NCBI RefSeq assembly: GCF_009755885.1
Contig: NZ_VYIX01000001.1
Coordinates: 186,001 to 250,000, forward strand
Source: Brachyspira sp. SAP_772
GTDB lineage: Bacteria > Spirochaetota > Brachyspiria > Brachyspirales > Brachyspiraceae
DNA: 64,000 nt
Reading direction: 5' to 3'
In this document: piece after piece, positions 38,716 through 47,066 of the stretch
Layout: each line of letters starts with the position of its first letter
Position numbering within the stretch: position 1 is the stretch's first letter
The notes under the pieces: model-generated
What the model saw: the letters and a program-made list of their open reading frames with translations, nothing else
What the model was told of the DNA's origin: nothing
Databases searched by the model: none
Made by a program: the position numbers and the translations under genes

Positions 38716-39876
38716 ATGAAAAAGAAAATACTGCTTATATTAATAATTGCAATTTCCTCACTTTATTCCAAGAGCAATAATGAGAAAATAAATAGTTTAT
38801 CAATTACAAATGAAATAATAAAGCCAAGCGACGAATTATTAGCTTTATTAGAGAAGAATAAAAATAAAACAGGGGTTGCTGAAATAATTGAATTAATAAA
38901 TGAGGGCGGTGTAAATGCGGCTTTAAAAGGTACAATCATTATAGAAAATATAGTATACTACCCCAATTCAACATCTTTAATGATAGCATCATCATTTGGT
39001 CATTATGATATAGCAAAAGCCTTGATTGATAATGGGGCTTTGGTTAATTTAAGAGCAATCGATGGATTTAATGCTTTAATGGAAGCTGTAAGAGCTGATA
39101 ATATAGAGATAGCACAATTACTAATAAACAATAATTCTGATATAAATATAAAAAATGAATACGGCAAAACTATGATTATAATTGCATGCGAAAACGGCAA
39201 TGAAGAAATGTTTAATTTATTAGTAGAAAACAATGCTGATATAAATGCAAAATCATATTGGGGGGAGAGTGCACTTATTTATGCTTCTAAAAAAGGCAAT
39301 ATCAACATAATGAAATATTTAATAGATAATGGTATAGATGTTAATGGAAAAGAGGATTATAATGGGAGTACTCCATTATTTTGGGCTGTTTCTGGAGAGA
39401 ATCCTTATGAAGCTTCAAAACTTTTAATTGAAAATGGTGCAGATGTTAATGCTGTAAATGATAGCGAAGTTGCACCTGCTAGTATACTTGCATTATCTGT
39501 TCCTGAAGTAGTTAAACTTTTAAAAGATAATGGTGCCGATTTAGATACAAAATTTTTAGATAATTATCCTCCTATAGCAATTGCTGCAGGTGAGGGTAAT
39601 TTAGAAATAGTTAAGGCATTGGTTGAGAATGGGGCTGATGTGAACTATTATCCTAATGATATAAACTATACTGCGATATTTCATGCTATAGACCAACATA
39701 ATTATGAAGTTGCTGAATATTTATTTAAAAACGGTGTAGATTTAAATATAGTATTAAAACCTTCTGATATTTATAAAGATATACTAAAAGAAAGCTATAA
39801 TGTTTTAGAATATGCTGAGGCTATTCAAGATAAAAAAATGATTGACATAGTAAAAAAATATTATAATAAAAAATAA
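38716..39876 (+). CDS. Exported ankyrin-repeat protein 1
   Basis: A 386-residue protein with a signal-like N terminus (MKKKILLILIIAISSLYSKS) followed by a linker and eight ankyrin units of about 33 residues (about 85-350), for example GHYDIAKALIDNGALVNL and GNLEIVKALVENGADVNYY. Ankyrin stacks bind other proteins; here in the periplasm or at the surface. It is paralogous to the next gene over its whole length, with an almost identical stretch near the end (39595-39734). Only 66 bp separate it from the PepSY-like gene, so it may share that gene's promoter. The partner protein is unknown. Confidence 0.88.
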   Translation: MKKKILLILIIAISSLYSKSNNEKINSLSITNEIIKPSDELLALLEKNKNKTGVAEIIELINEGGVNAALKGTIIIENIVYYPNSTSLMIASSFGHYDIAKALIDNGALVNLRAIDGFNALMEAVRADNIEIAQLLINNNSDINIKNEYGKTMIIIACENGNEEMFNLLVENNADINAKSYWGESALIYASKKGNINIMKYLIDNGIDVNGKEDYNGSTPLFWAVSGENPYEASKLLIENGADVNAVNDSEVAPASILALSVPEVVKLLKDNGADLDTKFLDNYPPIAIAAGEGNLEIVKALVENGADVNYYPNDINYTAIFHAIDQHNYEVAEYLFKNGVDLNIVLKPSDIYKDILKESYNVLEYAEAIQDKKMIDIVKKYYNKK

Positions 39877-40138: not shown

Positions 40139-41302
40139 ATGAAAAAGAAAATACTGCTTATATTAATGATTGCAATTTCATCACTTTATTCCAAGAGCAA
40201 TAATGATAAAATAAATAGTTTAACCACTACTACAAATGAAATAATAAAGCCAAGCAATGAATTATTAAGTTTATTAGAAAAGAATAAAAATAAAACAGGG
40301 GTTGCTGAAATAATTGAATTAATAAATGAAGGTGGTATAAATGCTGCTTCAAAAGACGAAATTATTATAGGTGATGTTACTCACTATGCTAATACTACTC
40401 CTCTAATGATAGCTTCATCATATAATCATTATGATATAGCAAAAGCTTTGATTGATAATGGGGCTTTAGTTAATTTAAAAGCAAATGACGGATTTAATGC
40501 TTTGATGGAAGCTGTGAGGACTGGCAATATAGAGATAGCAAAATTACTAATAGAACATGACTCTGATATAAATATAAAAAACAAAGACGGTAAAACTATG
40601 ATTATAATTGCATGCGAAAAAGGCAATGAAGAGATATTTAATTTATTAGTAGAAAACAATGCTGATATAAATGCAAAATCATCTTGGGGAGCAAGTGCAC
40701 TTATTTATGCTTCTGAAAAGGGAAATATTAATATAATGAAATATTTGATAGACAATGGAATAGATGTTAATTTGAAAGCTTATGAGAATGGAGATACTCC
40801 GTTATTATGGGCAATTTCGGGAGAAAATCCTTATGAGGCTTCAAAACTTTTAATAGAAAATGGGGCTGATGTTAATGCTGTAAATAATAGCGGGGTTGCA
40901 CCTGCTACTATACTTGCAGCATCTACTCCTAAAGTGGTAAAACTCTTAAAAGATAATGGTGCTGATTTAGATACAAAATTTTTAGATTATTATCCTCCTA
41001 TAGCGATTGCTGCAGGTGCGGGTAATTTAGAAATAGTTAAGGCATTGGTTGAAAATGGGGCTGATGTGAACTATTATCCTAATGATATAAACTATACTGC
41101 GATATTTCATGCTATAGACCAACATAATTATGAAGTTGCTGAATATTTATTTAAAAACGGAGTGGATTTAAATATAAAAATGAAACCTGATAATGACTAT
41201 GGCAGAAGTATAAAAGAAAGCTACAATGTTTTAGAATATGCCGAGGCTATTAAGGATAAAAAAATGATTGATTTAGTAAAAAAATATTATAAGAAAAAAT
41301 AG
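40139..41302 (+). CDS. Exported ankyrin-repeat protein 2
   Basis: A 387-residue close paralogue of ankyrin protein 1, with the same signal peptide apart from one or two residues, the same linker and eight ankyrin units. Differences are spread through the first six units, while units seven and eight (41021-41160 in DNA) are virtually identical to copy 1. The upstream 25 bp (TATTAATAAAAAGGTTATTAT) are also shared with copy 1, including the AAAGG ribosome site. It likely arose by tandem duplication together with the promoter of gene 3. Confidence 0.88.
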   Translation: MKKKILLILMIAISSLYSKSNNDKINSLTTTTNEIIKPSNELLSLLEKNKNKTGVAEIIELINEGGINAASKDEIIIGDVTHYANTTPLMIASSYNHYDIAKALIDNGALVNLKANDGFNALMEAVRTGNIEIAKLLIEHDSDINIKNKDGKTMIIIACEKGNEEIFNLLVENNADINAKSSWGASALIYASEKGNINIMKYLIDNGIDVNLKAYENGDTPLLWAISGENPYEASKLLIENGADVNAVNNSGVAPATILAASTPKVVKLLKDNGADLDTKFLDYYPPIAIAAGAGNLEIVKALVENGADVNYYPNDINYTAIFHAIDQHNYEVAEYLFKNGVDLNIKMKPDNDYGRSIKESYNVLEYAEAIKDKKMIDLVKKYYKKK

Positions 41303-45728: not shown

Positions 45729-45833
45729 TTAGAATAAAATTTTAAAATATAAATAAATTTTAAAAAAATCTTGACCCTAGAGTTTACTTCAATGATATAA
45801 TATAATTATAAAAATATGTAAGGAGATAAAAAA

Positions 45834-47066
45834 ATGAAAAAAGCTATATTAATAATGATGCTGTTATCTATTATATCATGCAACAATTCTTCTAATGCTC
45901 AAACACAAAATAACAATAATAAAATTAATAATCAAAACAGTTCTTCTAATGCAGTGTATAATCAAGAATTAAAAAAGGCCCCTATTAACATACAAACCAA
46001 TGCAGACGGAAGAATAAAATCAAGAGGATTCGCTGCAGTTTCTGCTAATATGGATTTTAAATATCATGAGTTTACAAGGCACTCTGTTGGAAGCAATGAT
46101 GTTTTAATAGAGATACTTTATGCTGGGATATGCCATAGCGATATACATATGGTTGAAGGTAAATCAAGCAATACGCCTTTAGTAGTTGGTCATGAAATAG
46201 CAGGAAGGGTTATACAGGTTGGAAGCTCAGTAACAAAATTTAAAGTTGGAGATTTCGCAGGAGTTGGATGCATGGTAAACTCTTGCGGGGAGTGTGAGAG
46301 TTGTTTAGATGATTTAGAGCAATACTGTTTAAATAGGGCTGTTTTTACTTATGGTTCAAGAGACAGATTCCATGATAATGAAATTACTCAAGGGGGATAT
46401 TCTGACAATATAGTAGTATCTGAAGATTTTGCAATACTCATACCAGACAATGCAGAGCTTGAAAAGATTGCTCCACTTCTTTGTGCGGGCATCACGACTT
46501 ATTCACCAATACAAGTTATGAATGTACAAAAAGGTGATAAAATAGGCATTGCTGGGTTTGGAGGGCTTGGCTCTATGGCTGTAAAATATGCTGTGAAGTT
46601 AGGGGCAGAAGTTACAGTATTTGACATTACAGAAGACAAAAGAGAGGACGCTTTAAATATGGGTGCTGTAAGATATGTTAATGTTAATAATCCAGATGAT
46701 TTAAAAAATCTTAACAACACTCTTAATTATGTGATAAGTACAATTCCCGCTTACTATGATGTTAATATGTATATGAGTATGCTAAAAAGAGGAGGTACTA
46801 TGTGTATATTAGGTCTTCCTCGCACATCAAAAATGCCTACACTTATAGCAATGGTAGGTCAGCATGGCAGTAAAAAATTATTTGGTTCACTTATAGGAGG
46901 CATAAAAGAAACTCAGGAAATGCTTAACTATTCTATAGAAAATAATATTTATCCTACTGTTGAAATAATAAAAGCAGATGCTCAAACTATATCAGATGCT
47001 TATAGAAAAGTGATAGATGGAAAAGTGAAGTTTAGATATGTGATAGACATGCGTACTATAGAATAA
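45834..47066 (+). CDS. Zinc-dependent alcohol dehydrogenase with lipoprotein signal
   Basis: A 410-residue MDR-superfamily dehydrogenase like the YahK / cinnamyl alcohol dehydrogenase group. Catalytic zinc ligands appear in ICHSDIH and GHEIAGRV, the four structural-zinc cysteines in GCMVNSCGECESCLDDLEQYC (C-x2-C-x2-C-x7-C), and the NADP-binding GFGGLGSMA at about residue 240. The odd part is the N terminus: MKKAILIMMLLSIISCNNSS, a textbook lipobox signal, then a 40-residue Asn/Gln/Ser linker. AAGGAG precedes this ATG. So it is predicted to be a periplasmic or surface lipoprotein, away from the cell's NAD(P)H. Confidence 0.85.
   Translation: MKKAILIMMLLSIISCNNSSNAQTQNNNNKINNQNSSSNAVYNQELKKAPINIQTNADGRIKSRGFAAVSANMDFKYHEFTRHSVGSNDVLIEILYAGICHSDIHMVEGKSSNTPLVVGHEIAGRVIQVGSSVTKFKVGDFAGVGCMVNSCGECESCLDDLEQYCLNRAVFTYGSRDRFHDNEITQGGYSDNIVVSEDFAILIPDNAELEKIAPLLCAGITTYSPIQVMNVQKGDKIGIAGFGGLGSMAVKYAVKLGAEVTVFDITEDKREDALNMGAVRYVNVNNPDDLKNLNNTLNYVISTIPAYYDVNMYMSMLKRGGTMCILGLPRTSKMPTLIAMVGQHGSKKLFGSLIGGIKETQEMLNYSIENNIYPTVEIIKADAQTISDAYRKVIDGKVKFRYVIDMRTIE

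Follow-up and report, generated by a model that had tools for sequence, protein, structure and literature searches.

Glucose-fructose oxidoreductase carries bound NADP. The Zymomonas enzyme and Caulobacter AAOR are oxidoreductases of the Gfo/Idh/MocA family that are described as bearing Tat signals (PMC4628093, excerpts). Flavodoxin_4 and DUF4405 proteins have already been proposed for extracytosolic electron transfer (PMC10979944, excerpts), and the AdhR/NmlR system of B. subtilis (adhA, yraC, yraA), which answers to methylglyoxal or formaldehyde, controls an alcohol dehydrogenase (ADH) and a CMD protein (PMC4776306, excerpts). The Brachyspira exoproteome contains an abundant 'alcohol dehydrogenase' group, the specific enzyme being unstated and the fraction rich in cytoplasmic proteins (PMC4955376, excerpts). 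Judging by titles and the starts of abstracts, searches of openly licensed PMC papers brought up no description of an exported MDR dehydrogenase group or of the combined gene cluster reported below; the main text of PMC10979944 has 0 occurrences of 'alcohol dehydrogenase', 'aldo', 'cupin' and 'carboxymuconolactone'.

Here, we analyzed a gene from Brachyspira sp. SAP_772 that lies in a stretch of 64,000 nucleotides (hereafter the window) and encodes a zinc ADH of the MDR type behind a lipoprotein-type leader. Like glucose-fructose oxidoreductase and AAOR, the window ADH has an export signal; unlike it, those enzymes are Gfo/Idh/MocA proteins that carry Tat signals, whereas TatC was found in 0/26 Brachyspira genomes (versus 11/14 control genomes in the same search). 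Elsewhere in the source genome, a cluster contains both the Flavodoxin_4 and the DUF4405 kind of protein. This cluster, which includes a CMD gene, opens with an NmlR-like MerR regulator gene, and in this it resembles the AdhR/NmlR regulon. It differs from that regulon in that several of its products have export signals, that the window ADH lies outside it, and that control by its regulator is putative. We propose that the window gene probably encodes a membrane-anchored lipoprotein, a catalytically intact NAD-type zinc alcohol/aldehyde oxidoreductase that would work outside the inner membrane.

Architecture of the window ADH

The features of the gene are collected in Table 1. Both halves of the core were recognized by Pfam (ADH_N, 7.1e-25, 87.7 bits, cut-off 23.5; ADH_zinc_N, 5.9e-18, 65.5 bits, cut-off 31.8), and the score against the NCBIfam model for aldehyde reductase Ahr (NF047908) was 232.3 bits, below the curated cut-off of 470. 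The roles given to the catalytic-zinc ligands (C100, H120, E121 and C217) and the structural-zinc cysteines (C151, C154, C157 and C165) are those known for the family. An AlphaFold model computed from a 35-row alignment reached a mean pLDDT of 86.6 and a pTM of 0.84, with pLDDT below 50 at residues 1-4 and 6-33. By sequence, H. pylori CAD (3TWO, deposited as 'mannitol dehydrogenase') and YahK (1UUF) match best among the solved structures. Both share the zinc MDR fold, and in VIA-align 3TWO ranked first (Z 48.1, rmsd 1.6, 52% identity over 343 residues; 1UUF, Z 44.5). The aligned chains of both structures begin where the core of the window ADH begins.

Table 1. Positions of features of the ADH lipoprotein gene within the window
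Feature	Position	Strand	Remark
ADH lipoprotein ORF	45834-47066 (45834-47063 also given)	+	410 aa
RBS AAGGAG	45820-45825	+	8 nt 5' of the leader ATG
Predicted lipoprotein signal peptide, residues 1-15	45834-45878	+	sequence; dN/dS 0.25 (residues 1-16, 15 orthologues)
Lipobox Cys C16, predicted lipidation and cleavage point	45879-45881	+	Cys in 15/18 complete orthologues
Asn/Gln/Ser-rich linker, residues 17-59	45882-46010	+	length differs among orthologues
Zinc MDR dehydrogenase core, residues 60-410, CAD/YahK branch	46011-47063	+	Pfam and structure matches
Catalytic-zinc ligand C100	46131-46133	+	invariant, 35/35 aligned rows
Other catalytic-zinc ligands	H120 46191-46193; E121 46194-46196; C217 46482-46484	+	invariant, 35/35 rows
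Structural-zinc cysteines C151, C154, C157, C165	46284-46328	+	invariant, 35/35 rows
D264, end of Rossmann beta-2, NAD-type	46623-46625	+	Asp in 41/41 exported versus 0/57 cytoplasmic rows

Two features set the main Brachyspira lineage apart from the other aligned rows: the loop at residues 106-118 (window 46149-46187) is shorter, and Val replaces Pro immediately before the GHE motif. Neither promoter-like motifs (10 versus a shuffle mean of 14.2) nor terminator-like motifs (0 versus 0.7) were in excess, and since the scans do not exceed the shuffles no promoter is claimed. Elsewhere in the window, positions 38716-39876 and 40139-41302 encode adjacent near-duplicate proteins that look ankyrin-repeat-like by eye and have signal-like N-termini.

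Evidence that the leader is used

The preliminary description had placed a lipoprotein signal on a zinc ADH, and this is what we found. The signal reads MKKAILIMMLLSIIS-C16 with the lipobox I13-I14-S15-C16, followed by the Asn/Gln/Ser-rich linker. Within it, MKKAILIMMLLSIISC combines a charged n-region, a hydrophobic stretch and the lipobox Cys, as expected of a bacterial lipoprotein, and there is no RR of the kind that marks a twin-arginine signal. Signal peptidase II (PF01252) was detected in 26/26 Brachyspira genomes, the source genome included, and the main orthologue in 19/26. The lipobox position could be read in 18 of the 19 rows labelled 'lipo', the remaining one (L040) being a contig fragment whose leader is not visible and which was labelled exported by orthology. 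The three complete orthologues that lack the Cys form one lineage (L023-L025, B. alvinipulli type) with Phe or Ser at this position; their N-terminus still resembles a signal and NAQT is kept, so they may be exported without lipidation.

It had also been claimed that the extension is translated. Over the 15 Cys-bearing orthologues, dN/dS was 0.25 for residues 1-16, 0.12 for the linker and 0.07 for the core, and in the orthologues inspected a purine-rich site, similar to the AAGGAG of the window gene, lies upstream of the leader ATG. No comparable ribosome-binding site was seen at that spacing upstream of the internal Met73 (in ANMDF). Translation start at Met73 was rejected on the grounds of leader constraint and the lack of such a site, and the orthologues, which keep the extension, do not begin there. 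That NAD(P)-dependent enzymes are normally cytoplasmic speaks for a leader that goes unused in practice, the ADH staying in the cytoplasm. We regard this as very improbable given the constraint on the leader, the position of the ribosome-binding site, and relatives whose export signals are of other types (Sec and Tat, see below). Export of the window ADH is, on sequence comparison, well supported; its substrate, cofactor use and cofactor source are inferred. Since TatC was found in 0/26 genomes, Tat export of the holoenzyme in Brachyspira is unlikely, and a tightly bound cofactor would thus hardly travel out within an ADH already folded for that route.

Exported relatives and the cofactor pocket

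By its named relatives, the window falls within Brachyspira, closest to B. pilosicoli. Among the best 80 of 572 relatives from named genomes, 12 (58-63% identity; Bacteroidota and one Akkermansiaceae MAG) have Sec-type signal peptides, a thirteenth such relative (L055, 58%) has a weak leader, and six from Campylobacter/Helicobacter (53-58%) have Tat signals of the form RRxFL. The source genome also encodes a paralogue (G000:C2:675209-676267) that is 56% identical and has the same zinc ligands; unlike the window ADH, it has no signal sequence and carries an NADP-type Ala-Arg in the pocket. A tree was built from 74 thinned rows after removal of the beta-2 loop; in it, the exported Brachyspira rows formed one group (100/99), as did the rows with Tat signals (100/99). 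A single clade of all exported rows was neither shown nor rejected (p-AU 0.492). A search of Spirochaetota with the core at 1e-60 gave matches in 24/247 genomes, namely 22 Brachyspira and two others, in a sample of 247 drawn from a larger group and with some of the Brachyspira matches due to the cytoplasmic paralogue alone. Plasmids were also considered and rejected: 3912 records match, all at below 60% identity.

An Asp at the end of the second beta-strand accompanies NAD preference in zinc ADHs. In the model of the window ADH, this strand spans residues 259-264 and ends in D264, and the small, NADP-permitting residue that CAD, Ahr and YahK enzymes have at this position is absent. By contrast, 3TWO, whose structure title names NADP(H), has Ala here, and 1UUF has Thr. 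The preliminary description of a complete MDR enzyme with both zinc sites and an NADP fold thus stands as regards the domains and zinc ligands, but not as regards the cofactor, the site being of the NAD type. Across the alignment, the position holds Asp in every row labelled exported (41/41) and Ala, Ser, Thr or Gly in every cytoplasmic row (57/57), in groups that were written down after the residues at this position had been seen, with leader classes assigned by eye and the weak leader of L055 among them. Two misaligned rows (L094 and L086) were omitted from this count and from the tree. Fisher values for residue against location were not counted as evidence, because of the kinship among the rows and because each change may be a single event. 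The pattern among exported ADHs may reflect only one or two events, as one exported clade is not rejected. A counter-case is L158, a distant YahK-like ADH from another spirochaete, which combines a Tat-like leader (RKKF) with an NADP-type Thr; export as such therefore does not force the pocket change. L157, the other distant match in Spirochaetota, has no leader and a Ser at the position.

An exported NAD enzyme might not have to draw on an external pool of cofactor. In a closed-cycle enzyme, similar to a dismutase or a nicotinoprotein, NAD would be acquired once, stay bound, and be recycled by alternating oxidation and reduction of two substrates, so no such pool would be needed. The NAD-type pocket of the window ADH agrees with this, as do mycobacterial SDRs with non-exchangeable NAD (PMC5264612, excerpts) and the glucose-fructose oxidoreductase, which couples two sugar substrates and has a Tat signal (PMC4628093, excerpts). 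However, the mycobacterial SDRs bury their NAD under an insertion (PMC5264612, excerpts), and the Rossmann part of the window ADH has none when compared with cytoplasmic relatives such as L088, though one loop exceeds its counterpart in the Brachyspira cytoplasmic paralogue by 5-6 residues. We consider a closed cycle possible but rather unlikely.

Partner genes and exported aldo/keto reductases

Gene neighborhoods were read for seven partner families (flavodoxin_4, aldo/keto reductase (AKR), CMD, cupin, alpha/beta hydrolase, cyclophilin-like and NmrA-like). Outside the main Brachyspira lineage, at least one of them was present at 15/22 exported loci, versus 4/53 cytoplasmic loci, in the stretches read; omission of the six loci that had supplied the seeds (L052 among them) left 9/16. 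Partners flagged as exported by a crude rule occurred at 13/22 exported loci (7/16 without the seed loci) versus 2/53 cytoplasmic loci, and L073 and L080 are cytoplasmic ADH loci with partners so flagged. Fisher values without the seed loci were 9e-5 and 3e-4, to be read with caution because the loci are related and each change is possibly one event. Outside Brachyspira, 14/19 exported loci have a gene for a flavodoxin, aldo/keto reductase, CMD, cupin or hydrolase nearby, and many of these genes carry signals. No partner genes were seen in the stretches read at the main-lineage Brachyspira loci (0/7, the window locus and six others) or at the paralogue loci L120 and L121. One Brachyspira paralogue, L119, lies within a cluster that holds genes for CMD, cupin, hydrolase and flavodoxin proteins; most of these proteins start with lipoprotein- or Sec-like leaders.

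The source genome holds such a cluster at G000:C2:838036-854399, away from the window gene. Its first gene encodes the NmlR/AdhR-like MerR regulator, which scores 148.7 bits against a cut-off of 175, has Cys52, and belongs to a locus other than that of the window gene. Among the further products are a cyclophilin-like lipoprotein and three AKRs, of which one has a Sec signal and one, at 838928, is cytoplasmic. The cluster also encodes flavodoxins, some with leaders and some without, a fusion of FGE with flavodoxin, two DUF4405 proteins, a lipoprotein cupin and CMD, and, by resemblance, an SDR-like protein. In the fusion (G000:C2:845054-846544; L134:13055-14545), a hydrophobic N-terminal segment is followed by an FGE-sulfatase domain joined to Flavodoxin_4. 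A cytoplasmic and a lipoprotein cupin that are closely related both occur in this one cluster (G000:C2:842919-843365 and 848997-849500), and the lipoprotein cupin scores 167.6 bits with the NCBIfam model for (R)-mandelonitrile lyase, whose cut-off of 140 it exceeds. Near exported ADHs, L048:6671-8167 is by Pfam a lipoprotein-type Flavodoxin_4-AKR fusion, and L053:7237-8796, likewise lipoprotein-type with an aldo/keto reductase domain, resembles it.

The exported AKRs show a parallel change of pocket. Sec-exported AKRs read IPG-S-x-x-x-x-H where cytoplasmic AKRs read IPK-S-x-x-x-x-R, at K/R positions that presumably contact the phosphate of NADP; the same two replacements were reportedly used to confer NADH activity on an AKR. 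G/H was found in 29/29 rows classed as exported and K/R in 22/23 cytoplasmic rows with letters (one K/H), export being classed by a crude rule, and both rows with Tat signals have the NADP-type K/R. These rows matched the exported AKR at 1e-20 and come from 39 loci, 30 of which were taken from a longer list, with three letterless stretches and the duplicate locus L168 set aside. The G/H rows cluster together in a tree (SH-aLRT 93), so the change from K/R to G/H may have been one event. G/H AKRs (G000:C2:840047-840967; L169-L194) are found in Brachyspira and other spirochaetes.

An earlier suggestion was that the exported protein had been recruited for another task, such as ligand or host binding. 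A predicted tether at the cell envelope would suit such a task, and the zinc ADH fold is able to host non-redox chemistry, as in flax hydroxynitrile lyase (PMC8892092, excerpts). Nevertheless, the zinc ligands are invariant in 35 rows, the core evolves at a dN/dS of 0.07 and relatives have redox neighbors. A role in binding thus finds no support in the invariant ligands and constrained core, and we consider a non-redox task improbable. The other possibility raised earlier, that the enzyme works outside, gains from the exported relatives in other phyla, intact active sites, and exported redox genes in the neighborhood of many relatives.

For a catalytically active lipoprotein, we envisage the following sequence of events. 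Sec would export the window ADH unfolded, since no TatC was found in the genus; the protein would then be lipidated and anchored, and its body would fold and load zinc and NAD outside the inner membrane. There it would interconvert reactive carbonyls and alcohols, a role suggested by the enzyme family, by the NmlR-like regulator encoded in the cluster, and by the AdhR regulon known from B. subtilis (PMC4776306, excerpts). The ADH would be one enzyme of an extracytoplasmic redox toolkit that also includes flavodoxins, an aldo/keto reductase, CMD, cupin and DUF4405 cytochrome-like proteins. In arriving at 'probable' for this proposal, we counted against it the isolation of the window gene, the loci L073 and L080, the few events that may underlie the Asp pattern, the labels written down with the residues already seen, the weak leader of L055, L158, the two Tat-signal AKRs with K/R, and the ambiguity of the exoproteome.

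A broader, tentative reading is that, in Brachyspira and in the relatives from other phyla, a redox economy based on NAD(H) operates beyond the inner membrane and would neutralize reactive carbonyls before they enter the cell; we see this as possible, though doubtful. Two unrelated folds, the zinc MDR and the aldo/keto reductase, would be Sec-exported with NAD-type instead of NADP-type pockets. Both enzymes would acquire their fold and their NAD outside, where hydride exchange would be linked to the exported flavodoxins and to a DUF4405 membrane cytochrome. Enzymes exported by Tat may keep NADP, because they are folded and can bring it along.

It is generally assumed that dehydrogenases with nicotinamide cofactors depend on the pool in the cytoplasm. 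The window ADH has exported kin with intact active sites and a changed pocket. Relatives in other phyla use other export signals and share the altered cofactor pocket of the spirochaete enzyme. Together with a spirochaete that appears to tether a whole alcohol/aldehyde dehydrogenase on the far side of its inner membrane, they hint at redox chemistry with nicotinamides beyond the cytoplasm. The exported ADH group makes the use of NAD(H) by bacteria outside the inner membrane directly testable, and the source of external NAD becomes testable in a spirochaete for which the search turned up no Tat system.
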